Position numbers and translations under genes: made by a program. This document shows, in pieces, positions 3,483 to 20,140 of a stretch of 20,415 nt of DNA (its first letter is position 1; each line of letters starts with the position of its first letter). The stretch covers positions 1-20,415 of IMG/VR virus record IMGVR_UViG_3300048930_000319; one strand, 5' to 3'. Below the pieces are notes generated by a model. The model ran no database searches and was not told the origin of the DNA. It saw nothing but the letters and a program-made list of their open reading frames with translations. This DNA comes from a virus.

Positions 3483-3550
3483 TCAACATCACTCCACCCC
3501 CCGGAATCCCCCGGATTGGCCCCACGAAGCCAAGGGTTACATTCCGGGGG
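3483..3550. repeat. Intergenic cluster of CCCCCGGAAT-type repeats
   Basis: This 68-base gap between the tape measure stop and the next start holds three copies of the short G/C repeat: TTCCGGGGG at 3542-3550, directly touching the stop codon (complement of 3551-3553), and a double copy at 3497-3518 with two CCCCCGGA(A)T cores. The ribosome binding site of the downstream gene is at the left end of the gap. Confidence 0.7.
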
Positions 3551-6178
3551 TCAGCCGTAAGCCAACCCGCCGTCCTGGGTCTTTCGATCGATGCGCGCCA
3601 CGGCCACGCCGATGCCGCGCACCGCATCGAAGATGCGCTGGAAGACTTCTTCACGGTCCACGCCGGCGATGCCACCCTGCAGGGTCGCCTCGGCGTCGCC
3701 GCCGCCAATGGCGCCACGGCTGATCGACACCTCGCTGGCAGACAGCCGCATGGCCACTTCCATGTGCATCAGCTGCTCGCGGAGTCGGAACTCCTTCTCG
3801 ACGAGGTCCGTGCGCAAGCCCTCGGCCTTGGCGGCGGCCAGGGCGCGGGCTCGCTCCAGATCAAGCAGCTTCTTCTGCAGTTCGATGCCCCGGTACTGCG
3901 TCTGCAGGCTCAGGCGGTCGACCTGGTACCGCTGCTCGTCAATGCGTTGCTGCAGCATCGCCTGCTCTTCGAGATGGCGCTTCTTCGCCTCCGCCACGCG
4001 GGCGTCCTCGCGCTTGACCGCCGCCGCCAGCTCGACGCGGCGTGCTTCTTCGATCATCAGCAGCGTGTCCAGATTCGCCCCGGCCGCTTTGGCCGCGTCG
4101 CGCTCCTTCTTGTACTTGAGGTCGATCAGCTCATAGGCGCGCATGAACTCGTCATCGATCTGCTGCAGCTTCAGTTGGTGCAGCTTGTCGGCCCAGTCCA
4201 GTTCGAGCTTGCCGATCTGGCGCTGCCGCTCGGCCATGGGATCGCCCCCGGCCCCCGGGTCCGGCGTCGCACTGCCGCCCGTCAGTGCGGAGGTGCTGCC
4301 GGCTTGTAAAGCGTCGCGCTGGAGCTGCAGCTTGTGCACCTTCGCACCCTGCTTGGCGATCTGATCCGCCAGGGCGTCGAAGTCGGCCTGGTCGCCGCCG
4401 ACGAACTTGCCCCATTTTTGGGTGGTGGCGCGGAGCTCCTCGAGCTGCGTCGCGAGCTTGTCGAGGTTCTGGCGCTCCTGCCGCAGAGCGTTGCCCACCT
4501 CGAACAGGGCCGCCTCGCGCATCTTGCCGGTCAGGCGGTCCCATGCCCCGGCCATGCCATCGATGCGGCCGGTCGTCTCGTCGAGACTGATGCCCAGATC
4601 GCCGTAGCGGGACTCCAGCTCGCCGATGAGATCGTGCGCTTCGCGCATCTCGTGCGTGTTGAGTTTTTCCTTGGCGGCCAGTTCCTCGAGCCGTCGCATG
4701 CGCTCCATGTCGGCCGATCGCAGCTCCTCGCCGCGCCGGGCCTGCTCGCTCATGGTGTGGTTGAGCTGTTTGGTTGCGTCGTCGGCTTTGCGGATGGCGT
4801 AGTACAGGGCCGAATACGCCGCGACGATGCCCAGCACAATGAAGGCCACGGGGTGCGCGGCCAGGAACGTCAGCGCGACTGTCACACCCTTGACCGCCAT
4901 GCCCAGCGCCACCATCAGCGTCGACAGCGTCGCGATCGACTTGCCCACGACAAAGGCCGTGCCACTGACGGCCAGCAAGGTCACGCCGACCGCACCGATC
5001 CCCACCGCCAACTCCGCGACGCGGCGGATCAGCCGCTGATTCGCACTGGCCCAGGCCGTCGCCCCGGCCACAATCCGCTGCGCCAGGTTGATCAGTGCCC
5101 GGGCCTTGGGGGCCACCGCTTCACCAATGGCAATGGCCAACCCTTCCAAGGTCGACTTGAGGATGGTGGTTTCCCCGGCAAGGTTGTCGATTTGCGTGGC
5201 GGCGAGGCGCGAGGCGGTGCCGCCGGCATCCTGCAGGGCAGAAGTAAACTCCCGCAGACGCTCCGCCCCCTGCGCCACCAGTTCCGCAGCACCGGCCGCC
5301 TGCCGGGCGTCGAAGATCTGGCCCAGGGAGGCCAGACGCTCGCCACTGCCCATGCCGGACAGGCCGCGCTGCAAATCTTCGATGATGTCCGCCAGCATGC
5401 GGACATTGCCTTGCTCGTCCTTGATCCGCACACCGAGTCGGCCCAGTTCCGCTCCCGCCTCGGCTGACGGGCTGGTCAAAGCCAGAAGCATGCCACGGAT
5501 GGTGGTACCGGCCATCTCGCCCTGCACGCCCGCATTGCTCAGCAGCTGAATCGCCGCCGTCAGTTCTTCCAGCCCGATACCAGCTGTCTTGGCGATGGGA
5601 CCGACGAACTTCATCGCGTCGCCCAATTGCCGCAGATCGGTGTTGGCGGTGGTCATCGCCTTGGCCATGATGTCCACAGCCTTGCCCACGTCCCGGGCTT
5701 CGATGCCCATACCGGCCATGATCTTGGCGGTGATGTCGGCCGCCTCGGCGATCTCCAACTGACCCGCGGCGGCCAGATCCAGCGCCGGGCCGATGGCATC
5801 GAGAATCTTCTGCGTGTCGAAGCCCGCCAGTGCGAAGTAGGACATCGCCTCGGCGGCTTGCGAGGCGGAGAACACCGTCGTCTCGCCCAGCTTCTTAGCT
5901 TTCGCCTCCAGTCGAGCCAGGTCGTCACCCGTCGCGCCGGTCAACGCCTTGACGCGGGACATCTGCTGTTCGAACGAAGCATAAACCTTAGTGGACAGGA
6001 CGAACGGCGTCAGCATGGCCGCCGACATCGCGGTCAGGTTCGTGCCCACCGCCGCGACATTCCGCGCGAACTTCTGCACCGCGCCTTCGGCCGCGCGCAG
6101 ATCGCGCACGAGCTGGCTCTTCTCGGCGAACAGCTCGACAAACGCCCGCCCCGCTCGAATGGCTCCTTGCTTGCCCAT
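3551..6178 (-). CDS. Tail tape measure protein (TP901-like)
   Basis: The protein has 875 residues. The N-terminal 60-340 segment is of the TP901 tape measure type, with motifs such as ASFEQQMSRVKALTGA and F-S-A-S-Q-A-A-E-A-M-S-Y-F-A-L-A-G-F. A long hydrophobic stretch spans about 387-462. Charged coiled-coil helices follow (about 465-560 and 670-800, many E, K, R, L, Q). It sets tail length and helps pass DNA into the host membrane. At about 1.5 angstrom per residue the tail would be about 130 nm (inference). GAGG with a 7-base spacer precedes the ATG and overlaps the stop of the frameshifted chaperone reading frame. The stop codon is followed at once by a CCCCCGGAAT repeat. Confidence 0.95.
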   Translation of the reverse strand: MGKQGAIRAGRAFVELFAEKSQLVRDLRAAEGAVQKFARNVAAVGTNLTAMSAAMLTPFVLSTKVYASFEQQMSRVKALTGATGDDLARLEAKAKKLGETTVFSASQAAEAMSYFALAGFDTQKILDAIGPALDLAAAGQLEIAEAADITAKIMAGMGIEARDVGKAVDIMAKAMTTANTDLRQLGDAMKFVGPIAKTAGIGLEELTAAIQLLSNAGVQGEMAGTTIRGMLLALTSPSAEAGAELGRLGVRIKDEQGNVRMLADIIEDLQRGLSGMGSGERLASLGQIFDARQAAGAAELVAQGAERLREFTSALQDAGGTASRLAATQIDNLAGETTILKSTLEGLAIAIGEAVAPKARALINLAQRIVAGATAWASANQRLIRRVAELAVGIGAVGVTLLAVSGTAFVVGKSIATLSTLMVALGMAVKGVTVALTFLAAHPVAFIVLGIVAAYSALYYAIRKADDATKQLNHTMSEQARRGEELRSADMERMRRLEELAAKEKLNTHEMREAHDLIGELESRYGDLGISLDETTGRIDGMAGAWDRLTGKMREAALFEVGNALRQERQNLDKLATQLEELRATTQKWGKFVGGDQADFDALADQIAKQGAKVHKLQLQRDALQAGSTSALTGGSATPDPGAGGDPMAERQRQIGKLELDWADKLHQLKLQQIDDEFMRAYELIDLKYKKERDAAKAAGANLDTLLMIEEARRVELAAAVKREDARVAEAKKRHLEEQAMLQQRIDEQRYQVDRLSLQTQYRGIELQKKLLDLERARALAAAKAEGLRTDLVEKEFRLREQLMHMEVAMRLSASEVSISRGAIGGGDAEATLQGGIAGVDREEVFQRIFDAVRGIGVAVARIDRKTQDGGLAYG

Positions 6179-6187
6179 CTTTTAACC

Positions 6188-6604
6188 TCAGCCTTTACCG
6201 CACAGCTTCCGAAGCCTGTTGAAGTCGTCCTTCGTCGCCACCCTTGCCGGACGCCTCGTGTCTCTCCCCGAGTAAGGATTCAACGCGTCTGTCCCCAACG
6301 CCCCCACCTTCCGGGGGTCGCGGCCCATGTTGAAGACCATCGTGGCGATCATGCTGGTCCGGGCATATTCATGTCGCAGCCTGTGCCGGCCCATTACTAA
6401 AAGTTCGGCGAAGGTCAGGGGGTCGGGGTCGAGTCCGCAGACGCCGGCGAACTCGTGGACGAGGTCCCAGAGGCGATCACTTGTGAGACCAGGCTCGCGC
6501 AGTCGATCGCGTCGATCCTTGCCTGCACCTCGCCGATGGCGATGGCTTCGGTCTTGAGCATCCGCTGCAGAGCGATCGCCTGGTCCGGCCGACCGCTCGC
6601 CGTA
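6188..6604 (-). CDS. Tail assembly chaperone T extension (-1 frame, joined to G by frameshift)
   Basis: This frame is open from position 6604 down to a TGA at 6188, through 138 codons. It has no usable start before an ATG at 6394, which lies in mid-domain. The segment from about 6475 down (DRLWDLVHEFAGVCGL, then LTFAELLVMGRHR, then ARTSMI...NMGRDPRK and ALNPY) looks like the phage family following the G chaperone, with the usual pattern LW-x-LAG-x-x-G-x-P-x-x-LT-x-x-EL and a final NPY. The conserved part extends upstream of the ATG into the overlap with G, so translation must enter by frameshift or from an unusual start. The first 40 or so residues after the slip are Arg-rich, low-complexity and look unconstrained. 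Confidence 0.65.
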   Translation of the reverse strand, partial: YGERSAGPGDRSAADAQDRSHRHRRGAGKDRRDRLREPGLTSDRLWDLVHEFAGVCGLDPDPLTFAELLVMGRHRLRHEYARTSMIATMVFNMGRDPRKVGALGTDALNPYSGRDTRRPARVATKDDFNRLRKLCGKG

Positions 6605-6918
6605 AAAAAACTTCCCAGCCCCCGGAAGAATTGCTCGCGCAGTTGGGCGAACTTTTCACCGTCGAGTGACGCGCCGAAGGCCTCGTCATCAATGTCCTGC
6701 GCATCCAATTGCGGCTTCAGGATGGCGTAGCACACGTCCACCAGCAGCGACACGTCCGTGCTCAGCCGCGCCATCGTCGGGTCCTCGCCTCCCCCGGAAG
6801 TCCCGGAACTCCCGGACGTGCCGCCCGTGGGGGCCGACACCACATCGAACAGGTCGACGTTGAGCAGACGCTTGACGCGCTTCAGGGCACCGATGTTGAA
6901 CTGCAGGTCGTAGGTCAT
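6415..6918 (-). CDS. Tail assembly chaperone, G-like (167 aa)
   Basis: The gene lies between tail tube and tape measure, where lambda G sits. The ATG at 6918 has AAGGA about 10 bases upstream; the longer frame from 6978 lacks such a signal. The N-terminus MTYDLQFNIGALKRVKRLL is typical of small tail chaperones, followed by a helical body (about 47-135). Residues 31-46 are a Gly/Ser/Thr linker encoded by three copies of the short G/C repeat. The C-terminus (from about 148) is a low-complexity Ser/Thr/Pro/Ala tail, as expected where the zero-frame product only fills the overlap with the frameshift extension. It would bind the tape measure during assembly and is absent from the virion in known systems. 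Confidence 0.75.
   Translation of the reverse strand: MTYDLQFNIGALKRVKRLLNVDLFDVVSAPTGGTSGSSGTSGGGEDPTMARLSTDVSLLVDVCYAILKPQLDAQDIDDEAFGASLDGEKFAQLREQFFRGLGSFFTASGRPDQAIALQRMLKTEAIAIGEVQARIDAIDCASLVSQVIASGTSSTSSPASADSTPTP
6604..6610 (-). promoter_or_regulatory. Candidate -1 ribosomal frameshift slippery heptamer
   Basis: On the minus strand the sequence reads agT TTT TTT acg, with the two TTT codons being codons 104 and 105 of the G-like gene, so the heptamer T-TTT-TTT is exactly in the X-XXY-YYZ phase. A -1 slip enters the frame that runs without a stop to 6188 and gives a product of about 243 residues. Seven Ts in a row stand out in this GC-rich region. Programmed -1 slippage in this gene pair is well established for lambda and many other tailed phages. 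Confidence 0.55.
6791..6817. repeat. In-frame CCGGAA repeat cluster encoding a Gly/Ser/Thr linker
   Basis: Three tandem copies of a CCCGGAAx / TCCCGGAxT unit of about 9 bases lie inside the G-like chaperone gene. Read on the minus strand they encode the flexible stretch GTSGSSGTSGGG (residues 33-44). Confidence 0.6.
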
Positions 6919-6941
6919 GATCGATCGGTCCTTGCGCGGGG

Positions 6942-7004
6942 TGAGGTCCAGAGTCGAGAGTCCAGAGTCGGGAGTCATGCGGCCCGGGGGCCGGGGGCCG
7001 GGGG
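6942..7004. repeat. Intergenic tandem repeats: 14-mer pair and CCGGGGG array
   Basis: The 86-base gap between tail tube and chaperone holds two repeat types. A 14-base unit, GTCCAGAGTCG(A/G)GA, occurs twice in tandem from 6946 with a third partial copy. Three consecutive CCGGGGG units end at 7004, directly against the tail tube stop codon (complement of 7005-7007). Confidence 0.65.
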
Positions 7005-7475
7005 TTACGGCGCGGACGGCACCACGTAGATCTGGATGAACGACGAAGCGCGCAGCGTGACGCTGACCTTCACCACGTCTTCCAGCGCCTGGGTGGTGTT
7101 GAAGTTTTCGACGATGAAGTTGCCCGCGGGGCCTTCGTTGCCTTCCTCGTCGTCGGGACCGGTCAGGGCGACGATGCCCACCTCGGCCTTGGTCGTCTTG
7201 GCGGTGCGCAGCTTCGCGTACTGCGCATCGCCCTTCTTAAAGACGATCTCGGTCTCGATGGTCACGTCGCTGATCGTCGCCGCGTTGGACCTGAACTTTT
7301 TACTGGCCCGCGTGGTGGCGTCGGCGATGGCGTCGACCTCGTTGACGGTCACATCGCGCACGATGTCCAGTTCGGTCAGCGTGGCGCTCTCAACGTCGGT
7401 GGCCTGGTCGCCGGTGAACAGAGCGTCGGCGATGTACAGCTTCGAGTCTGCGCCGAGGGAGTAGTTTTCAGACAT
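7005..7475 (-). CDS. Major tail tube protein
   Basis: The 156-residue protein starts at an ATG with AGGAG 8 bases upstream. It is beta-rich and acidic. The opening (SLGADSKLYIA) and the segments VTVNEVDAIADATTR and ISDVTIETEIVFKK resemble the tail tube proteins of siphophages, which often carry a D-A-T/D-V-T-R pattern for subunit joining. The end (VKVSVTLRASSFIQIYVV) is a long strand typical of the family. It lies just upstream of the chaperone G/T pair and tape measure, the canonical place for the tube protein. The identity rests on order and fold-like pattern rather than a diagnostic motif. Confidence 0.75.
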   Translation of the reverse strand: MSENYSLGADSKLYIADALFTGDQATDVESATLTELDIVRDVTVNEVDAIADATTRASKKFRSNAATISDVTIETEIVFKKGDAQYAKLRTAKTTKAEVGIVALTGPDDEEGNEGPAGNFIVENFNTTQALEDVVKVSVTLRASSFIQIYVVPSAP

Positions 7476-7522
7476 GGGGTGTGCTCCTGCGTTGCTTGTG
7501 TGTGGCAGATTTCAGACGGCCA

Positions 7523-7535
7523 AATTCCGGGGGGG
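7523..7535. repeat. AATTCCGGGGG-type repeat abutting a stop codon
   Basis: A single copy (AATTCCGGGGGGG) lies directly 3' of the stop codon (complement of 7536-7538) of the 165-residue structural gene, within a 60-base intergenic gap that also holds the ribosome binding site of the tail tube gene. Confidence 0.65.
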
Positions 7536-8033
7536 TTACTGGGCCTTTTCGTGGATGGTCAGTGCGGCGAAGAGGCCTTCGCCGAGGGTGCCGGTGCCGG
7601 GGGTGACGGTGATGACGATTTCCAGCACGTCGCCGGCGAGCAGGCCCGCCGATGCGATCGTGCCCGCGACGGTGTCGAAGGCGTCCTGCCCGCTGCCCAG
7701 TTCGATGGGCGCGGTGAGGATGCTTGCACCGTTGTTCTTCAGGTCCACCGTGATCGCCGCATCGCCAATGCACGGCGTGACGCAGCCAACGGCGAAGGCG
7801 ACAACGGAACCCGTCGCGCCGCGCACGTGGTGCAGGACGCGGCCTTCGGCAATGGCGGTCGACCCGCTCTCCTGGGCGAAGGTCACTCGGTGCTGGTGCT
7901 GCAGCTTCGTCGCGTCGATCCCGGCGTTGTCCTTCACCGCCGCGTCGCCCACGGTGCCGTTGGGCAGCGTCACCGTCTGCGCCGACACGTTGCCGGTGAC
8001 ATATAAATTGCCTTCGAGTCGATTCTGGGCCAT
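7536..8033 (-). CDS. Small phage structural protein (decoration or tail-associated), 165 aa
   Basis: GAGG with a 6-base spacer precedes the ATG. The N-terminal motif NRLEGNLYVTGNVSAQTVTLPNG is the kind of short beta-strand repeat found in phage fibre and decoration proteins. KDNAGIDATKLQHQHRV follows, then a beta-rich domain in which ITVDLKNNG and LEIVITVTPGTG alternate strands and turns. I recognise no named family. There is no signal peptide or membrane segment, which argues for a cytoplasmically assembled virion protein. Its place between the gp10-like gene and the tail tube suggests a tail-surface or head-tail-surface protein. Confidence 0.7.
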   Translation of the reverse strand: MAQNRLEGNLYVTGNVSAQTVTLPNGTVGDAAVKDNAGIDATKLQHQHRVTFAQESGSTAIAEGRVLHHVRGATGSVVAFAVGCVTPCIGDAAITVDLKNNGASILTAPIELGSGQDAFDTVAGTIASAGLLAGDVLEIVITVTPGTGTLGEGLFAALTIHEKAQ

Positions 8034-8036
8034 GGG

Positions 8037-8561
8037 TCACCTCTTGATGGAGTCCGCCCACATCGCGGCGGCCTCGGGCAGTTCGGCCTCGAAGGCCGGG
8101 TTCATATAAGGGCGGGGTTGAATGTTGACCGTCTTGTCGAGCCGGCTGACGTGCGTTCTCCCGCCGTGCTCAAGCACCATCGGGGCCATCGTCGGTGTGT
8201 TGAGTTTCATGGGACCGATCACCACCGACGCGTTTTCAAAGTCGTAGGCGAAGATGATGAACTTGCGCAGCAGGCCCACCTGCGACAGCGGCGGCTGCCC
8301 GGGTCGCGAGCTGCTCTGCTTGCGTGGTCGCTTGGGCACGGGCTTGCCATAGTGCTTGGCGATGGCCACGCGGGCCTTGAAGCGTTTGCGCTCGTCGTCG
8401 GTCATCTCCTTGAGCGGCTGCACCGGCGATCGCTTGATCGAGGTTTTAGCGCGCTGCCGCACGAACGCGCCAAAACGGCTCAGCGCGTCGCGTTCCTGCT
8501 TGCGCACCGCCTTCATTACGGCATCGCTGTCGAATCGGGCTGTCGCGCGTGCGTTGATCAC
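8037..8561 (-). CDS. HK97 gp10-like head-tail/tail completion protein
   Basis: The 174-residue protein starts at a GTG forming a GTGA overlap with the previous stop and preceded by GGAG at a 9-base spacing. A slightly longer GTG start at 8576 is possible. The sequence is basic: an N-terminal helix (DAVMKAVRKQERDALSRFGAFVRQRAKTSIK), an R/K/P-rich middle (KPVPKRPRKQSSSRPGQPP), a V-V-I-G-P strand, then MVLEHGGRTHV and a final PRPYMNPAFEAELP. The last pattern (EHGG..., R-PYM-x-PA) is typical of gp10/virion morphogenesis-type proteins that join the tail to the head. Position between terminator and tube genes agrees. Confidence 0.75.
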   Translation of the reverse strand: MINARATARFDSDAVMKAVRKQERDALSRFGAFVRQRAKTSIKRSPVQPLKEMTDDERKRFKARVAIAKHYGKPVPKRPRKQSSSRPGQPPLSQVGLLRKFIIFAYDFENASVVIGPMKLNTPTMAPMVLEHGGRTHVSRLDKTVNIQPRPYMNPAFEAELPEAAAMWADSIKR

Positions 8562-9240: not shown

Positions 9241-9851
9241 GCCGCCACCTCGCTTGCCCCGTGCACCGCCTGGGCGTTGTCCAGACACATGCGATGCCAC
9301 TGCGGATCGTTGTCCATCGCCTCGTGCGGCCCTGGGCACTGCACCCCCGGTTCAATGTGGGTGAGCTTGGGCCGGTCCGCGACGGGGGTATGGCCCCATG
9401 GCCGATTCCGCCGCTGATACGTCCAGCTCACCTTCCGCACATTGCGGGGGATGTCGATCGTCGGGAAGCGGGTGAGGCTCAGCGGATTGGCTGGCAGCCA
9501 CGTCGGCAGCCACGGCGAGCGGTACACCGGGTCGGCCAGGATCGCGTGTTCCACCTGCAGGCCATGTTCACGCAGGTGTTTGGCGAGCTGCACGAAGCCC
9601 CAGCCCGCGCCCCACGAGTAGGCGTAGACGAACAATCGCGGCTGCTCGGCCGGACCCGCGACCATGCGCATCAGCGCCGCCACGTCCTTCCAGTTCGAGT
9701 CCCACGTCCAGATGTTCACCGTCGTGCGTTTACTCGCATACGTGCGCATCTTCGCCCAAAGCTCGACGACACCATTCCCCCCGGATCCCCCGGATGGGCC
9801 GGACGCGATGGTCTGCTGGAACCCCGAGATGAGCACATGCTGCACGATCAC
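9237..9851 (-). CDS. Alpha/beta-hydrolase fold esterase/lipase-like protein
   Basis: The GTG at 9851 forms a GTGA overlap with the lipoprotein stop, with GGAGG 7 bases upstream; the frame further upstream is a shadow of the lipoprotein gene. The 204-residue product opens with a strand (VIVQHVLISGF). It has a nucleophile elbow FVYAYSWGAG (A-Y-S-W-G, the GxSxG motif with its first Gly replaced by Ala; Ser79), a candidate acid in ILADPVY (Asp107), and a candidate His in GPHEAMDND (His176), with His165 as the alternative. A Gly/Ser linker at residues 16-27 is encoded by short G/C repeats. No signal peptide is seen. A phage esterase could act on envelope lipids, like mycobacteriophage LysB in principle, but the substrate is unknown. 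Confidence 0.65.
   Translation of the reverse strand: MIVQHVLISGFQQTIASGPSGGSGGNGVVELWAKMRTYASKRTTVNIWTWDSNWKDVAALMRMVAGPAEQPRLFVYAYSWGAGWGFVQLAKHLREHGLQVEHAILADPVYRSPWLPTWLPANPLSLTRFPTIDIPRNVRKVSWTYQRRNRPWGHTPVADRPKLTHIEPGVQCPGPHEAMDNDPQWHRMCLDNAQAVHGASEVAA
9774..9802. repeat. In-frame double CCCCCGGAT repeat in the hydrolase gene
   Basis: Two near-identical units (CCCCCCGGAT and CCCCCGGAT) followed by a partial one lie inside the hydrolase gene. In its reading frame they encode the GPSGGSGGN linker between the first strand and the rest of the fold. Confidence 0.55.
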
Positions 9852-10108: not shown

Positions 10109-10119
10109 GGTGGCCTCCA

Positions 10120-10497: not shown

Positions 10498-10535
10498 GGG
10501 TCACTCCGGTACCGGGTCCACGCCACCGCCGGTCA

Positions 10536-10901: not shown

Positions 10902-10995
10902 GACCAGTTCTCCAGTTGCTGAGGGGGTACCCCCGGAAGTTGGGACCATGCACTACGGACGCGCCCATCCGGGGCTTCCGGGGGAATTCCGGGGG
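10902..10995. repeat. Intergenic cluster of short G/C repeats behind the capsid gene
   Basis: This 94-base gap has a perfect palindrome GGGGGTACCCCC (10923-10934) running into CCCCCGGAAG, and at 10968-10995 three successive cores (CCGGGGCTTCCGGGGG then AATTCCGGGGG). The last one touches the capsid gene stop codon (complement of 10996-10998). No gene is visible here. Confidence 0.65.
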
Positions 10996-13290
10996 TTACG
11001 CCTCGCCCTTGCTCTTCACGCCCGCGCGCTTCTCGTGCATGGCCACGCCGAAGTCGAAGTAGCCGCGGAACTGCGTGCCCAGCGTCTTGAAGTCGGTGTC
11101 GGCGCTTTCGATGGTGGGCACCTTGCGGCCGCGCAGGTACGCGACCTGGATCGCCGCCAGCACGCCCGGATCGGCCATCAGCCACCACGCCTTGTTGCTC
11201 GCCCCCGGCAGGTTGAAGTTGGGCGACAGCCAGGGCGCGACCACAGGCTTGTAAAGGCCCTTGTGCGGGTTGTCGGTCGGCTTGGGCTTGTTGGCCGTGG
11301 TCGTCTCGTTGACCGTGGTCGACGAATAGATCGTGTCGGCGGTCACCTTCAGGGCCGGGCTGACCAGCAGCTTCGCCGGCGGCACGCTGATCGGATCGCC
11401 GTTGTCGTCCTTGAGCTCCCAGAACTTGGCCACCACCGCCGTCAGCGCCTCGATCGACAGCGCGGTGTCCGCACCCTCGACATAGTTGCCGTTGTCGTCG
11501 TGCCAGAAGCTGCCGGGGTTGCTCAGCCACAGCTTGAAGACCGTCTTCTGCAGGTTGATGCCCGCCATGCGGCCGATCACCGCGTTGACCTGGTTAAACG
11601 CACTGAGGTCGTCGTTGATCTGCATCACCCGCGTCAGCGTCAGCAGCGCGCCCACCGTCTTGACCTGGTTGGCGTAATCCGCTTCCTGCAGGCCCACGTG
11701 CTTGAGCTCGCCGTCCGAGCCGACCTCGGTGAACTCGCCCTTGCCGGTGAGGCGGAACATCTTGAACTGCTTGAAGTCCGTGGCCGTCACATCGGCGGCG
11801 ATCTGCGGCACCACGCTCTCGACGGCGGTAAACGCATTGAGCAGCACCTTGTTGGCCAGGTTGCTCAGGATGCCGGTGAGACTGATCGTCGAGAAGCCGC
11901 TGGCGGCCCGCAGCACCTGGTCGGCCTCGTACGCCGCGCGGATGAAGTCGTTGCTCTTGCGATCGCCCGCGTAGTGCATGCCCGCGGCGCGGATGCACAT
12001 GTCCATGAGCATGTGCAGGCCCGCATGGCGGTAGGTGCTCGACGCGGCCAGGTTCATCACCTGCTCGCGCTCGCCCGCGGGCAGGCTCGCCGCCACGCGA
12101 TCCTCGGCGATGCCCGAGCCCATGCTCAGCGACGCCTCAAGCACCCGCCCGAGCTGAGCCGGGGGCACACCCGGCACGATGGCACCGGGCGAGGACGCCC
12201 GGCTCATGCGCATGGCGTGCAGTTCCGTCTTGTCGCGGTCCCAGCCCTCGCGAATGGCCCGAGCCTCGAGCGGCTCGTCGGAGCCGCCGTCGGTCTTGAC
12301 CGTGGGATTGCGGAACTGCGCGCAGATCTGGCGAATCTCGCTGACCCGCGTCGATTCGGCAGCGAGTTGCTGCCGGTAGGAAGCGACGAGATCGGGATCG
12401 TCGGCACCAGGAGCGGACGCGCCCGTGCGCCCGCCCGACGCGTTGACATTCTGATTGCCCGCGGGCTGCGTGGGCGCACCTCCGCTGCCTTCGCGCTGCG
12501 CGGTGGTCGTGCCGCCGCCCTGGCTGGAATTCCCTGGGCTTCCGGGGGTTCCGGGGGTTCCGGGGGTTCCGGGGGCGTCGTACATTGCCTTGAGGCTGGT
12601 GCGCTGCGCGTCGGTGAGGGTGGCCGGATCAAAGCCCTTGGCGGTCAGCCATTGTTCGAAGGTCATGGCGTCGTTCTCCTGTGTCTGTGCGGTATTGGCG
12701 GACGCGGCAACGCTGGCCGAGGTCTGTCCGTCCGCTCCGATGGCGGTGAAGCTGATTTCCTTAAGGGTGGCGTCGCGGGCGATGATCAGCGGGCCGCTGA
12801 CCTGGCGGCCGTTGACGGTCGCGGTCTTGCCCGCTTCGAGGAACTCACGGCGGTGGATGCTCGCGCCGATCGAGGCCTGCCACTTGAAGCCGTTCTTCGC
12901 ATGGGCCACCACGTCGGCCGCGTCCCCGCTGTCGCCGGTGATGATGCCGCCGACGTTGACGCCCTTGGCGCTGATGGCGATGTCGTTGGCCTGCCCCACC
13001 ACGCGGTTGCGGTCATGGTCGCGCAGGATCGGCAGTGTCTTGCCCGAAGCGCGCAAGCCCGACAGGTCCACGATCACCGGGTAGTAAAAACCCTCGACGT
13101 TCATGGGCGCGCCGGTGTAACCGGCGATCATGAACGAGGGGCGCTTGGCGGGCTGTCCCTCACTTCCGGGGGCGGCGGCCGTGATGTTCACTTCGGCGGT
13201 CAGTTCCAGCGCGTTGGGCTGCTGGGTGCTGGGCGGCGTCGACGGAGCGCTGGCGCGCAGCCAGGTTGGGATGAGATCACTGATCTTCAC
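10996..13290 (-). CDS. Prohead protease - scaffold - major capsid polyprotein fusion
   Basis: The start is a GTG at 13290 with GAGGAGG about 6 bases upstream, giving 764 residues; the portal gene overlaps by 14 bases. Residues 50-200 form a prohead protease-like domain (S78/U35 type) with candidate catalytic His92 in LPILRDHDR and Ser140 in KWQASIGAS. Residues 205-430 are a hydrophilic scaffold-like part that includes a GTP-tripeptide linker (240-250). From about 430 to the end is the major capsid domain (GMHYAGDRKSNDFIRAAYEAD, then helices and strands, ending FRGYFDFGVAMHEKRAG), similar in general pattern to Mu-like head subunits. The protease would remove the scaffold in cis during maturation. 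The TAA is followed directly by a CCCCCGGAAT repeat. Confidence 0.85.
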   Translation of the reverse strand: MKISDLIPTWLRASAPSTPPSTQQPNALELTAEVNITAAAPGSEGQPAKRPSFMIAGYTGAPMNVEGFYYPVIVDLSGLRASGKTLPILRDHDRNRVVGQANDIAISAKGVNVGGIITGDSGDAADVVAHAKNGFKWQASIGASIHRREFLEAGKTATVNGRQVSGPLIIARDATLKEISFTAIGADGQTSASVAASANTAQTQENDAMTFEQWLTAKGFDPATLTDAQRTSLKAMYDAPGTPGTPGTPGSPGNSSQGGGTTTAQREGSGGAPTQPAGNQNVNASGGRTGASAPGADDPDLVASYRQQLAAESTRVSEIRQICAQFRNPTVKTDGGSDEPLEARAIREGWDRDKTELHAMRMSRASSPGAIVPGVPPAQLGRVLEASLSMGSGIAEDRVAASLPAGEREQVMNLAASSTYRHAGLHMLMDMCIRAAGMHYAGDRKSNDFIRAAYEADQVLRAASGFSTISLTGILSNLANKVLLNAFTAVESVVPQIAADVTATDFKQFKMFRLTGKGEFTEVGSDGELKHVGLQEADYANQVKTVGALLTLTRVMQINDDLSAFNQVNAVIGRMAGINLQKTVFKLWLSNPGSFWHDDNGNYVEGADTALSIEALTAVVAKFWELKDDNGDPISVPPAKLLVSPALKVTADTIYSSTTVNETTTANKPKPTDNPHKGLYKPVVAPWLSPNFNLPGASNKAWWLMADPGVLAAIQVAYLRGRKVPTIESADTDFKTLGTQFRGYFDFGVAMHEKRAGVKSKGEA
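12540..12575. repeat. Four perfect tandem TTCCGGGGG 9-mers (G-quadruplex motif) in the capsid gene
   Basis: Four identical 9-base units lie end to end on the plus strand. On the coding (minus) strand they read CCCCCGGAA and encode Gly-Thr-Pro tripeptides in the linker between scaffold parts of the capsid polyprotein. The plus strand has four G5 runs separated by 4-base loops, which meets the usual G-quadruplex consensus. A fifth, diverged unit continues to the left (12530-12539). Confidence 0.85.
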
Positions 13291-14806
13291 TGTCGTCCTC
13301 CTCTTTGTCTTCTGGTGCGCCACGTCCTGGCGCGGCGGCACTTTCGGGGTCGGGTAGGGCGAACAGTTGATCGCGCATGGCCTTCTGGAGTTCCTCGAAG
13401 GTCATGCCCAGTTCCTTGGCGCGCTGCTGCAGTTGCTCTTCCCAGTCCTCGCCCTCGCGGCCGTACTCCTTGGCCAGCGTCGTGGTCAGCGACTTCAGCT
13501 GCGTCTCCTGCCGGCCCGCTTCACGCGGATCAAGCAGGCCCATGCCGTCCCACGTCCACGCCACAGGCGGGACGACGTCGCGGCCAGGCGATGGTGGGAG
13601 ATAGCCCGGGATCAGGCGTGCCTCGGCGTACCACCGCGCGAAGTCGATGTCGCAGATGCTCTCTTCGAAGAGGTCCTGGCAGATGTTGACATGTCGCATG
13701 AAGCCGATGATGTCCAGCTTGCCCGAGGCGAAGTTGTAGCCGCTGAAGTCCGCACCCGCGATGCCCTTGGGCATCTCAAAGCCACGCGCCATCTCGCTGA
13801 TGATGTTCTTCTTGAACATGTCATACGTGGTGGTCGGCTGCTCGGCCTTGACCTGCCGGAAGTCATAGCCCTCGGGCAGCGTCAGCATCTCGCGTCGCCG
13901 CACCGGGAAGCTTTCCAGCGGATCGTGCGCCGCCGGCTGGTCGGGAATCCACGTCGTGGTCAGCAGGCCCGCGATGTCGGCGGCGGTTTCCGCGGCGGCA
14001 AGCACCGCCAGCGTGTAACGGCGAAGCTGGGCGAACAGCGGCAGGCCGGGGGTAAACAGCGACACGCCCCGACGCTGGCCCGGCCGCTCCACGCGGAACA
14101 GGTGCCGCATCTGCTCGGCGGGCACGGTGTCGTAATCGTTCGGCAATGCGCCCGCATACAGCGCGCCGGGATGCACCTTCAGCACGTGGTACGCCATGGG
14201 GTCGCCCCAGTCGTCGTACACGATGCCGTCGGTGGGCTGCACATCCAGCCGCTGGATCGGCGTGTCGATCTGATCGCACTCGATCGGCGTCAGATTCAGC
14301 TTCACCGCATCGCGGATGTTGGGATTGTTCGTCTCGCGGGCGAAGGACTCGCCATCGACCACCCACGCAAAGCCCATGGTCCAGAGCTTCGTCGTCCACT
14401 TGATCGCCCGGCTCCACCGCCGGAATTGGGCCTCCACGGCGCGGTTGTATTGCCGATTCTCGGTGAGGACCTGCAGTGTCGGCCCGGTGCCGACGATGTA
14501 GTTCGTCAGCGTCTGGGCGATGCCCTTCGCATACGTGTTGCTGCCCACCTCATAGCGGCAGCGCTCGCGGATGATCTTGCGCACCTCCGGCCGCAGCGCC
14601 GCCTGGGCGCTGAGCGAATCCGCCCAGCGCCAATGCTCGGCATTCTCCGCCGTCGTCTGCGCCGCGTCATACGACCCCCGGATTTGGCGAGAAGGGGCAG
14701 CGGAGCTTCCGGGGGCACTTCCGGGGGCGGGCTTGGACGTGCGCGCGTTGTGCGGGCGCAGCGTGCCCTCGGGCATGGTCAGCACATCGATGAGCATGCT
14801 CGTCAT
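13277..14806 (-). CDS. Portal protein (lambda-type)
   Basis: The 509-residue protein starts at an ATG in an ATGA overlap with the preceding gene. Residues 27-40 are a Pro/Gly/Ser linker built from two short G/C repeats. The body (about 45-470) has portal features: RPEVRKIIRERCRYEVGSNTY, YIVGTGP, AQFRRWS, GESFAR, LTPIECDQIDTP, YHVLKVHPG, VPAEQMRHLFRVERPGQRRGVS, then the long helix and MARGFEMPKGIAGADFSGYNFASG. The last pattern (GF..PK..GADFS..NYS.. in the family) is typical of lambda gpB/phage portal family 2. It forms the dodecameric channel through which terminase moves DNA. The acidic end (EDKEEDDSEDQ) covers the ribosome binding site of the capsid gene. Confidence 0.93.
   Translation of the reverse strand: MTSMLIDVLTMPEGTLRPHNARTSKPAPGSAPGSSAAPSRQIRGSYDAAQTTAENAEHWRWADSLSAQAALRPEVRKIIRERCRYEVGSNTYAKGIAQTLTNYIVGTGPTLQVLTENRQYNRAVEAQFRRWSRAIKWTTKLWTMGFAWVVDGESFARETNNPNIRDAVKLNLTPIECDQIDTPIQRLDVQPTDGIVYDDWGDPMAYHVLKVHPGALYAGALPNDYDTVPAEQMRHLFRVERPGQRRGVSLFTPGLPLFAQLRRYTLAVLAAAETAADIAGLLTTTWIPDQPAAHDPLESFPVRRREMLTLPEGYDFRQVKAEQPTTTYDMFKKNIISEMARGFEMPKGIAGADFSGYNFASGKLDIIGFMRHVNICQDLFEESICDIDFARWYAEARLIPGYLPPSPGRDVVPPVAWTWDGMGLLDPREAGRQETQLKSLTTTLAKEYGREGEDWEEQLQQRAKELGMTFEELQKAMRDQLFALPDPESAAAPGRGAPEDKEEDDSEDQ
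14687..14728. repeat. CTTCCGGGGGCA pair and CCCCCGGAT copy in the portal gene
   Basis: Two 12-base-spaced copies of CTTCCGGGGGC (14706-14728) encode A-P-G-S-A-P-G-S in the portal linker. A third, inverted copy (ACCCCCGGAT, near 14692) follows 13 bases downstream in the gene. Confidence 0.6.
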
Positions 14807-14994: not shown

Positions 14995-15130
14995 GCGTGA
15001 CAGCAACTCCGAGTTCTGAGCGTCGTCGTGTTGTGTGCGACTACGGCCAGATATGCCGGAGGGCGTCCGCGTTATCGGGGAGATGTGGGATTTTGCGCGA
15101 GATGGGCTATTTCATTCGATATCTATAGGT

Positions 15131-15165
15131 TCCCCCCCGGAATTCCCCACGGAATTCCCCACGGA
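15131..15165. repeat. Tandem GGAATTCCCCAC units with a CCCCCCCGG core in a 187-base gap
   Basis: Two perfect 12-base copies of GGAATTCCCCAC (15139-15150 and 15151-15162) follow a CCCCCCCGG run. The gap 14995-15181 also holds an AT-rich patch near 15100-15128 (contains TATAGATATC on the minus strand) that could contain a promoter element, but I see no convincing -35 box. Confidence 0.6.
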
Positions 15166-15181
15166 TGTTCCTCTGCACCAC

Positions 15182-15397: not shown

Positions 15398-17748
15398 CCG
15401 AATCGCTCCCTGTAAATGTCCTGCAGCTTCTTGGCGGGTTTCACGCGGCGGCTGGGGGTGACCAGCGAGCCGGGCTCGTTGATGCCCTCCATCGACGCCG
15501 CCACCGCGCAGCCCACGATGCCGTCGAACAGGTCGTTGTCGCGGCCCTTGGTCTGCTTCCACAGCAACAGGCTGCGACCCTTCTTGTCATCCAGCGACGG
15601 CTTCTCCGACAGGATGTGGTCCATCAGCAGGCGATGCCGCTCGCGCGACTGCTCGAAGAACGTCAGCGCCCCGCGATCGCCGCGCGGCACGCGCAGGCGA
15701 CTGGCGATCGTCGACTTCCACCGGTTGCTGTCGAAGATGACGAACCGGCTGGCGTGGGTCTTGCTGTACCGCTCGCGCCAGTGCTGGCCCACGCGATCGC
15801 CGGGCTGCTTGGCCCAGTCCTCGATCGCCTGCTGGCCCGGGCCGACGAAGTGGCCGTGGCTGGGCATGAGGATCGGCGCGTGCACGCTCTGCCGGCAGAA
15901 CTGGTACAGCACCGTGGTCATCTCGCCCCAGTTCGCGTCGACCAGGCAGCGACGAATCCGCACCGGCTCGCCGCCTTCGTTGGGCCACTCGCGCGTCAGC
16001 AGGTCGCCGGTGAGCTGCTCCAGGGCGTGCAGCAGTTGCGCCGGCCGCCCCGCGCCCGGCAGCATGCGGGCGATCGTCCGCTTGAGCTCGCGATGCGTGT
16101 AGTAATGGCTCGTCTGCTCGGGCCAGATGCCGTGGGCCACGATGTGGCTGCTGGCATCCTGCCCAAAGGCGCACACCACCCACCACAAGGCCTTGCTGTT
16201 GGCATCGATAAAGGCGGTGAGCGTGGGCATGGCCTGCGGCACCACCCCCGGCTTGGGCGCGGCGATCCGCGTGGCCAGCAGGTTCAGGTCCAGCTTCTCC
16301 TCGCTGTCCTCGTCGCCAGTGAGCGGCTGCTGCATCAGCTCCGCCCAGAACGACAGCTCGTCGTCGAGCTTCACGTGCATGATCGACTGCAGCGGATCGA
16401 CGTCGCCATCCTTGACGTAGTCCGGCCAGACCAGCTCCGCGCCCTCGTAAAGCTTCTTGCGATGCTTCTCGAAGAACGCGTTGGCGCTTTTGCCCTTGTC
16501 GCCGCGGCGCAGCCCCTCGGCGCGGGCCTCGCGGTACTCGTCCCACACGCGATCGCCCGTCGGCAGCTGCTTGAGCGCGGCCGTGCGCTGCCCCTGGAAG
16601 TGGGGATTGCGCTCGCGATCGAGCAGTTGATCCGCCAGATCGTCCTTCTGGATGACCGTCAGCGGCAGGAACACCGCGATCCGCTGCGTCGGTCCGGCCA
16701 ACTGCAGGACGGAACTGTTGATTGTCCGCAGGCGCTTGGCGCATTGTGAGGGGCTGTCGGCCGACTCGTCCGTCTGCGGATCGTCCACCACCGCCAGGTC
16801 CGGCCGGATCACCCGCTGGTCGGCGGTGGTATGCCGCATGCCGCGCAGGGCCCCGGTGATGCCGCGCGACAGGATCACCGATCCCGACGCCGACGAACCT
16901 GGGATCGTCGGCAGCACGAGGTGGTCATCTTCCCAGCGGATGCGCGTCCGCTGGCCCTGGTACGTCTGCGCCCTGGCCCGCTGCGAGATGCCTTCCAGCG
17001 CCCGGATCGGAATGCAGATCTCCGGGAAGTCGGCCGCCAGCAGGTCGTTGGTCTCCAGTTCCGTCTTGACCTCGACCAGCCGCGCGTCGGCTTCCTCGCC
17101 AGCGGCACCGATATACACCACGAAGCGCCGGTGCCCGTAGAACAGCGCCCAGATCGCCCCGGCCAGGCACAGGCTCGTCTTGCCCCAGCCACGCGGCATG
17201 GCCAGGGCGAACAACCCGCCGTCGAGCACCACGGCCTCGATCTGATTGCCCGCCAGCAGATGCGGCTCGGCCCACTCAAGCGTGAACACATGCGGCAGGT
17301 ACGTCCGGCAGAAGCGTTTATAGTCCAGCCGGCACGACTCGCGCCGCTGCGGATCGGCGATCGGCGGCAGATCGCCCAGCTCGCGCCGGTCCCGCGATAT
17401 CTCCCGCTGCTTCTGCGCGGTCCGACTACGATGCCTGTCATAGGCCCCCCCGGAATTGTCGCCCCCGCCCCCGGGGCTTCGAGGGGTTTCCGGATTCTCC
17501 CCTTCCGAATTTCCGGGGGTCGCCGAGACGAGCGGAACTTTGGCCACGGCGAACTCCAAGGTCAGCCAGGCCGCGTACCGGAACAGATTGATGGTGCGCG
17601 GGTCTTGCGGATCGCTAATGCTGTAACCGGCGACATTCCGATGCCGCCGCAACTGCGTCTCCGAGACTTTCCAGCGACCCGCCCCCGCCGCGTTCAATAA
17701 ACGCAGGAGCTGCGCAGGCCTAAGCCTCCGAGGGTCGATCTCCGCCAC
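15394..17748 (-). CDS. Terminase large subunit (gpA-like)
   Basis: The 784-residue protein starts at a GTG inside the end of the preceding small gene. The N-terminal 70 residues are helical and basic. A repeat-encoded Gly/Pro/Ser/Asn linker spans 77-103. The ATPase has a Walker A variant PRGWGKT (185-191) and a Walker B PDLAVVDDP (316-324), followed by a motif III-like QRIAVFLPLT. The C-terminal nuclease has acidic ligands in FIDAN (Asp515), LVDAN (Asp604) and GRDNDLFD (around Asp738). The protein cuts concatemers and pumps DNA into the prohead through the portal. It is long for the family, mostly because of the linker and N-terminal part. The stop overlaps the zinc-ribbon start. Confidence 0.93.
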   Translation of the reverse strand: MAEIDPRRLRPAQLLRLLNAAGAGRWKVSETQLRRHRNVAGYSISDPQDPRTINLFRYAAWLTLEFAVAKVPLVSATPGNSEGENPETPRSPGGGGDNSGGAYDRHRSRTAQKQREISRDRRELGDLPPIADPQRRESCRLDYKRFCRTYLPHVFTLEWAEPHLLAGNQIEAVVLDGGLFALAMPRGWGKTSLCLAGAIWALFYGHRRFVVYIGAAGEEADARLVEVKTELETNDLLAADFPEICIPIRALEGISQRARAQTYQGQRTRIRWEDDHLVLPTIPGSSASGSVILSRGITGALRGMRHTTADQRVIRPDLAVVDDPQTDESADSPSQCAKRLRTINSSVLQLAGPTQRIAVFLPLTVIQKDDLADQLLDRERNPHFQGQRTAALKQLPTGDRVWDEYREARAEGLRRGDKGKSANAFFEKHRKKLYEGAELVWPDYVKDGDVDPLQSIMHVKLDDELSFWAELMQQPLTGDEDSEEKLDLNLLATRIAAPKPGVVPQAMPTLTAFIDANSKALWWVVCAFGQDASSHIVAHGIWPEQTSHYYTHRELKRTIARMLPGAGRPAQLLHALEQLTGDLLTREWPNEGGEPVRIRRCLVDANWGEMTTVLYQFCRQSVHAPILMPSHGHFVGPGQQAIEDWAKQPGDRVGQHWRERYSKTHASRFVIFDSNRWKSTIASRLRVPRGDRGALTFFEQSRERHRLLMDHILSEKPSLDDKKGRSLLLWKQTKGRDNDLFDGIVGCAVAASMEGINEPGSLVTPSRRVKPAKKLQDIYRERFG
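17444..17521. repeat. Cluster of short G/C repeats in the terminase gene
   Basis: Six or so related cores in both orientations (CCCCCCCGGAATT, CCCCCGGGGCTT, TTTCCGG, AATTTCCGGGGGT) lie in 78 bases. All are read through in the terminase frame, giving the 77-103 linker rich in G, P, N, S and E. Nothing in a terminase needs such a linker, so it looks acquired. Confidence 0.65.
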
Positions 17749-17938
17749 GCCAGGTTTCTCCCGCGAGATACGCCGTGTAGTCGATGAGGCTCATCGTCCC
17801 GTCGGCCCGCAGAAGCTCCCCGTGCTCCGCAACCCGCCTGACCTGATCCTCCATCACCCGTCGGCCGAATGCCGCTGTCAGCACCCGCGCCGCCTGACCC
17901 GGTGTAATCATGGTGAGACTGAGCTGCTCGTCTGGCAT
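17720..17938 (-). CDS. Small HTH-like protein (terminase small subunit position)
   Basis: The ATG at 17938 has GAGGAGGA about 5 bases upstream, which decides the start over a longer frame from 17998. The 72-residue product begins MPDEQLSLTMI and carries a helix-turn-helix-like stretch (TPGQAARVLTAAFGRRVMEDQVRRVAEHGELLRADGTMSLIDYTAYL). It resembles short MerR/excisionase-type DNA-binding folds, where an early helix, a recognition helix and an L-x-x-D-G strand follow each other. It overlaps the methyltransferase by 31 bases and the terminase by 29. A DNA-recognition partner of terminase is plausible but unproven; a transcription regulator is the alternative. Confidence 0.65.
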   Translation of the reverse strand: MPDEQLSLTMITPGQAARVLTAAFGRRVMEDQVRRVAEHGELLRADGTMSLIDYTAYLAGETWRGGDRPSEA

Positions 17939-19329
17939 GGTTCCTCCTCGGAGCGTGCACGAATCCGCTCCGCTTTCTCTCCAGTGAACTGTTCCCACCG
18001 CTGCACAATCACGTCGCAGTACAGCGGATCGATCTCCATCAAGTAGGCCCGCCGCCCCGTCTGCTCACAGCCGATCAGCGTCGAACCGCTGCCGCCGAAC
18101 AGATCGAGCACCGCGTCGCCCGGTTTCGATGAATACTGAATGGCCCGCACCGCCAGCTCCGCCGGCTTCTCGGTCAGGTGCACCATCGACTGCGGGTTGA
18201 CCTTCTTCACATGCCACAGGTCCGTGGCGTTGTTCGGGCCATGGAAGTGATGCCCCGCGCCTTCCTTCCACCCGTAGAAGCAGATCTCAAACGCGCCCAT
18301 GAAGTCCTTGCGCGTCAGCACCGGGTGCTGTTTGTCCCACACGATCGCCTGGCTGAAGTAGAAGCCCGCCGCCTTGATCGGCGCGGGATAGTTGGCCAGG
18401 TTCGCGTAGCCGCCCCAGATGTAGAACGACCCGCCCGGCTTGAGCACACGCGAGGCGTTGTTGAACCAGGCGGTGAGCATGCGGTCGAACGACTCGGGCG
18501 TGACAAAGTCGTTGGCCAGCGGGCGGTCCTTGGCCCGCAGCTTCTTGTCCGTCCGCTTGAGCTTGCCGGGATCGCGGGCGGCGTCGAGCTGCTGGTGATG
18601 GTTCTTGCCGCACTTGGACTCGCGCTTCTGCCCTGCATTCGACGCTTCGAACGAACTGAGGCCCGCGGCGATCGCGTTGTTGCTGCGCGGCTCGACCTTC
18701 ACGTTGTACGGCGGGTCCATGTTCACCAGGTCGATCACCTGCCCGTCGCGCAGGCGATCGAGGTCCGCCGGGCTGCAACTATCGCCGCACATGAGACGAT
18801 GGTTGCCGAGAATCCAGATGTCACCGGGTTGTGTGGTCGCCTCGTCCGGCGGCAGCGGAATGTCGTCGGGATCGGTGAGCCCGGCCTGCACGCCGTTGGG
18901 ATCGCCGCTCATCAGCGCCGCCAGTTCCTCGTCGCCGAAGCCCAGCGTCGTCAGGTCCACGCTGGCGGCCTGCAGCTCGCTCAGTTCGATGCGCAGCGCC
19001 GGCAGGTCCCACTCGGCCAGCTCGCCGGTCTTGTTGTCACCGATGCGATACGCCTTGACCTTCTCCGGCGGCAGGTCCGCCGCGACGTGCACCGGCACGC
19101 GGGCCAGCCCCAGCTTGCGGGCGGCCTTGAGGCGGACGTGGCCGACGATGACCACGCCGTCGGCGTCGACGACGATCGGCTGCCGCCAGCCGTAGTCCTT
19201 GATCGACTGGACCACCGCGTCGACGGCCTGGTCGTTGATCCGCGGGTTGTTCTCGTAGGGAATGACCTTGTCGATGTCGCGCAGCTCGATGGCCAGCGAT
19301 TCAACGGGCTGGGAAGTCTCGGCACTCAT
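17908..19329 (-). CDS. ParB-domain DNA methyltransferase (beta class, N6-adenine or N4-cytosine)
   Basis: AAGGAG with a 6-base spacer precedes the ATG. The 473-residue protein has a ParB/Srx-like N-terminal domain (about 13-115, with NNPRIND and GHVRLKAARKLG). The catalytic motif IV DPPY is at 205-208, a variable target-recognition region lies at about 210-290, and the AdoMet-binding motif I-like FGGSGST is at 411-417, after DPPY. That order defines the beta class. It would methylate phage or host DNA at an unknown site, probably to block host restriction. No cognate restriction endonuclease is in the window, so it is an orphan methylase here. ParB-methylase fusions are frequent in phages and mobile elements. 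Confidence 0.92.
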   Translation of the reverse strand: MSAETSQPVESLAIELRDIDKVIPYENNPRINDQAVDAVVQSIKDYGWRQPIVVDADGVVIVGHVRLKAARKLGLARVPVHVAADLPPEKVKAYRIGDNKTGELAEWDLPALRIELSELQAASVDLTTLGFGDEELAALMSGDPNGVQAGLTDPDDIPLPPDEATTQPGDIWILGNHRLMCGDSCSPADLDRLRDGQVIDLVNMDPPYNVKVEPRSNNAIAAGLSSFEASNAGQKRESKCGKNHHQQLDAARDPGKLKRTDKKLRAKDRPLANDFVTPESFDRMLTAWFNNASRVLKPGGSFYIWGGYANLANYPAPIKAAGFYFSQAIVWDKQHPVLTRKDFMGAFEICFYGWKEGAGHHFHGPNNATDLWHVKKVNPQSMVHLTEKPAELAVRAIQYSSKPGDAVLDLFGGSGSTLIGCEQTGRRAYLMEIDPLYCDVIVQRWEQFTGEKAERIRARSEEEPCQTSSSVSP

Positions 19330-19513
19330 GTACTTCTCCTTGACGGGGCCGTGGTTGGTTCCGCGATTCCGGGGTGGTGCGCGAAAGAAAGTGTGTCTAT
19401 GACGGGGGCTGTTCCCGATGGAGTCGCCAAAACGACCTCCCAGGGAGGACCCATCGCCCCCCCCGGACCTGGCGGGCCTTGGGGGCCATCCGGGGCTTCC
19501 GGGCTCCGGGGGG
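19330..19513. repeat. 184-base gap with short G/C repeats behind the sigma-like gene
   Basis: At 19457-19513 four or more cores (CCCCCCCCGGA, CCGGGGCTTCCGGG, CTCCGGGGGG) end exactly at the stop codon of the sigma-like gene (complement of 19514-19516). A palindrome CCTCCC-A-GGGAGG is at 19436-19448. The left end holds the ribosome binding site of the methyltransferase. I see no gene and no clear promoter in this gap. Confidence 0.6.
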
Positions 19514-20140
19514 CTATGGGGTCAGTTCGTTGCGCATGACGGCTGTCAGCCGCGTCTTGAGGCGGCCGATGGCTCGGCTGTAGTTGCTTGGGTGGGTGAA
19601 GCCCGCCTTGCGAGCCGACGGTGACGGCCCCATCACCACGCGCAGCAACGCGGCGTCGCGCTGGTTGAGGTAGTCGTCGGGTCGATCGACGATGCGATCG
19701 ATCAACTCGTAGATGTGCTGGTCATCATCCGCTGCCGCGGGCATGAGGTCGGTGTCGCCGTCGATGGCGGTAAGCATCTCCGCCCGTCGACGGCGGATGA
19801 TCTGCCGGCTCAGCGATCGCAGTCGATACCGCGCACACGAACGCAGGTAGCTGCACAGCTTGCTGCGGCGCTGGTCGTACTTCGGCAGCGCCCGCCAGAG
19901 GCTCAGCAACACCTCCGATGCGATGTCGTCCGCCTCGGGACGATCGACGCCGAGGCGACGCGCCTGCGCCAGCGACCATCGCATGACCCACGGCCTGGCC
20001 CAGCGCAGCACGAGCTCGACCGCGACATCGACACGCGCCTGCGGCACATGCCCGTCAGCCAGAAACGGGAACGGCCGATCCGCACGCTGCAGCAGCGCCA
20101 GGATCGGCTCGACGGAATCGGGGATGGGGGCGTACGTCAC
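19514..20140 (-). CDS. Sigma-70 family-like transcription regulator
   Basis: The 208-residue protein has a region 2-like helix set at about 43-115: ARPWVMRWSLAQARRLG, then EADDIASEVLLSLWRALPKYDQ, then LCSYLRSCARYRLRSLSRQ. This is the pattern of ECF-type sigma factors (D-D-x-x-x-E-V-x-x-x-x-W-R-A-L, followed by W/Y-L-x-x-x-A-R-x-R). A possible region 4-like HTH is at about 157-200 (QRDAALLRVVMG, SARKAGFTHPSNYSRAIGRLKTRL). As the first gene of the late block it could direct late transcription. The GTG start has no clear Shine-Dalgarno. A host regulator next to the prophage is an alternative. Confidence 0.7.
   Translation of the reverse strand: MTYAPIPDSVEPILALLQRADRPFPFLADGHVPQARVDVAVELVLRWARPWVMRWSLAQARRLGVDRPEADDIASEVLLSLWRALPKYDQRRSKLCSYLRSCARYRLRSLSRQIIRRRRAEMLTAIDGDTDLMPAAADDDQHIYELIDRIVDRPDDYLNQRDAALLRVVMGPSPSARKAGFTHPSNYSRAIGRLKTRLTAVMRNELTP

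Follow-up and report, generated by a model that had tools for sequence, protein, structure and literature searches.

It is known that bacteria commonly carry short repeats, dispersed or in tandem, close to the ends of their genes. The short tandemly repeated repetitive (STRR) sequences of filamentous cyanobacteria, for example, are imperfect tandem short repeats, usually with units of 7 bp. We describe here a repeat that also forms imperfect tandem arrays of short units, in a 20.4-kb linear virus record (IMG/VR IMGVR_UViG_3300048930_000319; all 20,415 nucleotides are referred to below as the window) whose genes lie on the minus strand. Its unit is C5-8GGAA(G/T)T..., occurring singly or in imperfect tandem arrays of 9, 12, 14 or 15 bp, and a subset of its copies begins directly behind real stop codons with no intervening base; in these the C-run is always on the coding strand, and TAA and genes of higher codon adaptation index (CAI) are preferred. 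This position is exact to one base and strand-polar, and it recurs in phage and host genes.

STRR sequences are mentioned in PMC2670836, and we did not find exact abutment on stop codons described for them. The heptameric G-rich simple sequence repeats (SSRs) of Xanthomonas and Nostoc (GGGAATC / GGGGA(C/T)T; PMC4692102) resemble the present repeat in their strand-polar closeness to stop codons (here 15 copies against 0.5 expected, and none antisense, in the genome G056 discussed below). Of three traits of heptameric SSRs and STRRs that were compared, the repeat shares this one; it has neither the 7-bp tandem unit nor a mostly intergenic location. Its units are 9–15 bp rather than 7 bp, 71% of its copies in G056 lie in genes whereas 89–93% of Xanthomonas SSRs are intergenic, and its C-rich strand is the coding strand whereas near stops the G-rich strand of the heptameric SSRs is coding (PMC4692102). 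Stop distances of the heptameric SSRs were binned over 0–50 bp with stop overlaps included (PMC4692102), whereas here there is a spike at exactly 0. The TAACTGA direct repeats of the Beggiatoaceae (PMC4679880) also hold an exact position relative to a codon and are likewise patchy and found across lineages, their largest single class ending 1 nt before the start codon; however, that heptamer stands on the start-codon side and carries stops, while the present unit is stop-free and stands behind the stop codon. Repetitive extragenic palindromes (REPs; PMC12306157, PMC3733652) are a further case of dispersed short repeats near stops. Ribosome stalling has been reported for REPs within 15 nt of a stop (PMC12306157), and REPs with a GTAG end often supply the TAG (PMC3733652). 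REPs are 20–40 bp palindromes with GTAG/CGTC ends, whereas the present repeat needs no palindrome and follows the gene's own stop; judged on the sequences at all sites, it has neither such a palindrome nor a GTAG or CGTC end. REP stalling, together with the strand-polar clustering near stops in Xanthomonas and Nostoc, indicates that repeats near stops can matter. Literature searches on the motif and on Planctomycetes gave nothing relevant, and we did not find single-base exactness, the coding-strand polarity of a stop-free C-rich unit, or sharing between phage and host described in the literature searched.

The window has 29 copies of CCCCCGGA, whereas dinucleotide shuffles give 1.58 and not one of them reached 29. 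The 29 C5+GGA copies (1.4 per kb, on both strands) lie for the most part away from stops: genes on one strand or the other contain 18, gaps contain 10, and one (at 652) is outside both counts. Several of those in genes code for Gly/Pro/Ser/Thr linkers, such as PGTPGTPGTPGSPG in the capsid polyprotein, and the tandem arrays have unit spacings of 7, 9 and 12. The window contains seven 3' gaps longer than 30 bases (707 bases in total), and in five of these the repeat abuts the stop codon; of the five gap copies on the sense strand, four are at distance 0 (P about 5e-8), and C5GG stands at distance 0 behind five of the 22 window stops (P about 8e-11). It had been claimed from the letters alone that a C-run begins right after the stop codon in five genes, and all five positions stand, with the amendment that the tail-tube copy is an array of C5GG 7-mers lacking the A. 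A sixth copy, placed in the gap after the zinc-ribbon gene, is also there, but in the opposite orientation and within a degenerate 12-mer array. An Rfam search of the window gave no match.

The host class of the phage is almost certainly Phycisphaerae, on the basis of the genome labels 'Phycisphaeraceae' and 'Phycisphaerales' and of homologs of the window's TerL, which 125 of the 397 genomes in the class of Phycisphaeraceae NORP295 possess; the best of these homologs (60% identity) is in G284, a member of the same family as G056. Terminases of this phage type often occur twice per genome in the class and mark a widespread provirus group, and the closest match to a named phage terminase is below 30% identity, so that there is no close named phage. 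A simple open reading frame caller based on codon usage was applied to 1.18 Mb of G056, and distances were taken from each stop; this and the other distance-0 tests rest on sampled genome stretches, with Poisson P values. Same-strand C5+GGA occurs 15 times at distance 0 against 0.52 expected (about 30-fold, P 3e-17) and no more than twice at any other distance. The corresponding figures are 7 against 0.1 in G146 (P 2e-11; five in total at 1–50), 2 against 0.1 in G116 (P 5e-3), and 5 against 0.32 in other viral contigs (P 2e-5; 16 at 1–50). No antisense copy was at distance 0 in G056, G146, G116, G042 or the other viral contigs, and the G056 controls (C4GGA and the reversed motif) both gave 0 there. 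The abutment is too exact for chance. At the abutting sites of four genomes the stop is TAA in 18 of 25 cases against 7.9 expected (P 2e-5), and the abutted genes have higher CAI values (P 0.003). The genome-wide enrichment at distance 0 that had been proposed as a check was thus found in G056, G146 and G116, but does not extend to all element-rich genomes.

The genes abutted by the repeat, which were verified with Pfam, include rplP (L16), rpsN (S14), ahpC, fliQ, sdhA, sdhB, rpoZ (omega), nuoJ, a microcompartment shell protein gene and a homogentisate dioxygenase gene. NuoJ ends in a conserved MARRRA, with nearly the same end in relatives that lack the element, and an artefact of gene calling, which we considered, is ruled out by the Pfam-verified genes and the NuoJ homologs. 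A same-strand neighbouring gene follows 61–79 bases beyond the elements after rplP, rpsN, nuoJ and fliQ in G056. Both rplP and rpsN belong to one ribosomal-protein operon (G056 C16:12606-27511), in which CCCCCCC and a hairpin come after the TGA of an rpsC-like gene. When the bases behind rpsN stops were read across the class by pattern, most matches were not rpsN, and one clear related case was seen, in G081 (TAA followed by CGCCCCGGAAGT).

Gain and loss of the element can be followed among related proviruses. A single 7.4-Mb contig of G146 (C1) carries 12 sibling copies of the capsid region of this phage type, at 80–100% DNA identity to the query, which is an unusual number of related proviruses for one chromosome. 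In an alignment of three of the 12 (L317, L324 and P1068) with the copy in G208, the capsid stop is TAA followed by CCCCCGGAAGTT in L317 and TAA followed by a mutated version, CCTCCGGAAGTT, in L324, while P1068 and G208 have TGA followed by TTTGTC and no element. The capsid linker of L317 contains the in-frame inverted pair TTCCGGGGGAACCCCCGGAA, where L324 has an 18-bp gap. Among these siblings the element is a presence/absence indel of 9–18 bp, seen behind a stop as well as within the reading frame of a protein linker; no duplication is evident at these indels, in alignments at 80–85% identity. The window and G146 proviruses alike have the element directly behind the capsid stop, although the proteins are only about 43% identical. 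The repeat family is dispersed and has a patchy distribution between genomes; it comes and goes by micro-insertion, and copies in disordered linkers are tolerated. The original suggestion of a dispersed short DNA element, as opposed to one gene end that has been copied, is upheld by the sibling indels and the in-gene linker copies.

The patchiness is seen within the class too. When 84,980 species genomes were scanned with a stop-plus-hairpin pattern, most matches were single sites scattered across phyla; two of the matches were Phycisphaerae records, and only these led to element-rich genomes. Whole-genome counts of CCCCCGGAA in the two records were 444 and 316, against 20 and 21 for the reversed control, and the counts were 893 against 61 in G056, 583 against 19 in G146 and 1641 against 52 in G260, which belongs to the family of G056. 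Over 248 genomes of the class, most members are close to the control. Provirus loci follow in part: those of strongly element-rich genomes have 14 elements in 5.2 kb (G042), 7 and 1 (G146) and 3 (G208), but the locus in G116 has none although that genome is element-rich, and loci of element-poorer genomes have 0–2. Of 301 copies in G056, 214 lie in genes, which make up 87% of the sequence; they occupy all reading frames on both strands, and the same-strand copy spacing is mainly 9, 12, 14 and 15.

As to the cause of the single-base exactness, our current working hypothesis, which we hold tentatively, is that the repeat is a dispersed family of the host lineage that is carried by the phage, is mostly neutral, and has had its post-stop sense copies kept for an effect at the RNA level. 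The bulk of the copies would have spread neutrally or selfishly, and sense copies directly behind a stop would be retained as C-rich tracts acting in the message, the putative target being ribosome release, recycling or access to the spacer on highly translated messages, with no ending of the transcript. In more general terms, and with similar reserve, the C-rich tract may be an RNA signal for terminating ribosomes, or the repeat may insert by recognising stop codons; we have found neither kind described. Several observations weigh against a retained RNA-level effect. The tendency is not universal, as G042 has a single same-strand copy at distance 0 (P 0.16) and, among 100 copies listed from G260, TAA precedes three and TGA or TAG none; the C-run at stops varies from 5 to 10, so there is no strict RNA motif; three of the five abutting window sites have an inverted partner about 40–65 bases on and can fold; and insertion targeted to stops would by itself yield much of the pattern without any function. 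Such insertion, for example by an mRNA- or translation-coupled route in the sense orientation, with the element functionless where it lands, seems to us rather unlikely. The exact single-base spike, the strict sense polarity, the bias toward high-CAI genes and the fast gain and loss would all fit it, as would the finding that stop triplets before intergenic copies elsewhere are only at background (4 of 72 against 3.3% in G056, and 0 of 21 in G146); on the other hand, there is no candidate enzyme or known pathway, and since genes hold most of the copies, with every frame and either strand represented, a second insertion route would be needed. An RNA-level benefit and stop-targeted insertion are close rivals that the present data do not separate, and the presence/absence pairs in sibling proviruses allow a direct test of which of the two, targeted insertion or selection at translation termination, applies.

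The remaining explanations have less in their favour. It is improbable that the copies are purely neutral spacer repeats for which the junction was the sole free site when genes were once tightly packed: arrays do sometimes fill the entire spacer from stop to start, and C-runs adjoin start codons as well (CCCC immediately before ATG in 22 of 510 ATG-started genes of G056, against 3–5 at control positions, an excess not seen in G146), but in the element-free P1068 some 60 bases of spacer are already present after the capsid stop, and antisense copies, which should abut equally, do so in none of four genomes. The earlier idea that the element settles where it does least harm is not supported, since it predicts a spread across the spacer in both orientations, and the observed spike is one base wide and confined to the coding strand. 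Also proposed was a transcript-end signal, and the hairpins that element and inverted copy could form at three of the five window sites (about -32 to -34 kcal/mol) speak for it, as does the fact that other terminator-like hairpins of G056 likewise have C-rich stems starting at stops. These folds are, however, not significantly more stable than shuffles (z -1.6, -1.7 and +0.6) and no U tract lies directly behind them, so that the stable hairpin and following U tract of an intrinsic terminator are not seen; G056 has no pair of opposite elements within 60 bases, and its elements sit between genes of ribosomal-protein and nuo operons. Ordinary transcription terminators are unlikely to be the explanation, and a role in ending transcripts by a hairpin behind the gene is quite improbable. 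A terminator, a copied gene end and a carrier of its own stop are all unlikely identities for the element. The last of these, under which an insertion close to the end of a gene would set its stop, much as GTAG REPs bring TAG, is very improbable: another repeat family of G056, TAGCCGCAGATGAACGC, does carry TAG nearly wherever it is located, TAA is over-represented at the abutting sites and element-free siblings have TGA at the same stop, but C5GGAA copies away from stops generally lack TAA, which is not among the common triplets preceding in-gene copies, and the abutted genes have intact, conserved C termini. The background level of stop triplets before other intergenic copies implies that the element carries no stop of its own and largely refutes this explanation; two of the four G056 copies concerned have open frames, 100 and 278 codons long, upstream and may mark missed genes. 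We give equally little credence to the repeat being a recognition word spread over the genome, for instance a DNA uptake sequence, that is common to phage and host. The density in the window and the presence on both strands and in both phage and host would agree with such a word, but the core varies widely (C4–C10, GGA/GGC, tandem arrays), phage and host densities differ several-fold, and the distance-0 spike would go unexplained.

Table 1. Copies of the repeat in the window, and example sibling proviruses in G146:C1
Feature	Position	Strand	Stop codon and sequence behind it
Sigma-like gene, C6GGA abutting the stop	19505..19513	-	TAG (19514-19516), then CCCCCCGGA; first C 19513
Inverted C8GGA copy able to pair with 19505-19513	19457..19467	+	
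Capsid polyprotein, C5GGA abutting the stop	10988..10995	-	TAA (10996-10998), then CCCCCGGAATTCCCCCGGAAG; first C 10995
Capsid gap, second tandem copy 11 bases further	10977..10984	-	
Capsid gap, inverted copy	10930..10937	+	
165-aa gene (p165), C7GGA abutting the stop	7526..7535	-	TAA (7536-7538), then CCCCCCCGGAATT; first C 7535
Tail tube, (CCCCCGG)x3 array, A-less variant, abutting the stop	6984..7004	-	TAA (7005-7007), then CCCCCGGCCCCCGGCCCCCGGG; first C 7004
Tape measure, C5GGA abutting the stop	3543..3550	-	TGA (3551-3553), then CCCCCGGAAT; first C 3550
Tape-measure gap, two inverted copies (C6GGAAT C5GGA), hairpin with 3543-3550	3497..3515	+	
Zinc-ribbon gap, C7GGAATT and degenerate CCCCACGGAATT 12-mer array (15133-15165), antisense	15132..15165	+	
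Capsid polyprotein, four in-frame tandem 9-mers coding for PGTPGTPGTPGSPG, between protease and capsid parts	12541..12575	-	
Portal protein, two in-frame 12-bp copies near the N terminus (APGSAPGSS)	14708..14727	-	
Antisense copy array coding for a Ser/Gly/Thr linker (GTSGSSGTSGGG)	6791..6816	+	
Two antisense 9-mers coding for SGPSGGSGG	9777..9794	+	
Sibling provirus examples, G146:C1	2678853-2682326, 2757082-2760587, 3351511-3355011, 5784250-5787775		

The window encodes a sigma-70 region 2 protein, a ParB_N/N6-N4 methylase, a GpA-type terminase, a lambda-type portal, a protease-capsid polyprotein, a cement protein, a tail tube and a tape measure. Among viral contigs, the longer exact pattern CCCCCGGAATTCCCCCGGAA had no match; L009 is near-identical to the window (99.9%) without indels and so gives no information on polymorphism, and the distant phages L010 and L011 (35% TerL) are poor in the element, which is thus not a trait conserved together with the phage genes.

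Other short repeats were seen alongside the one described. In G056 (e.g. L158-L217), copies of a second family, TAGCCGCAGATGAACGCAGATGAACGC and its variants, nearly always start with TAG, at gene stops and elsewhere, and a third repeat, CCGCCAAGACGCCAAG, often has TAA before it; both supply stop codons to adjoining frames. An array of 7/14-bp units (GACTCTG/GACTCTC) directly follows the tail-tube CCCCCGG array in the window (6946-6976) and resembles the heptameric STRRs of cyanobacteria. An unrelated viral contig (L043:8557-8588) carries a perfect 8-mer array, four copies of CCCCCGGA, just ahead of a stop/start region.

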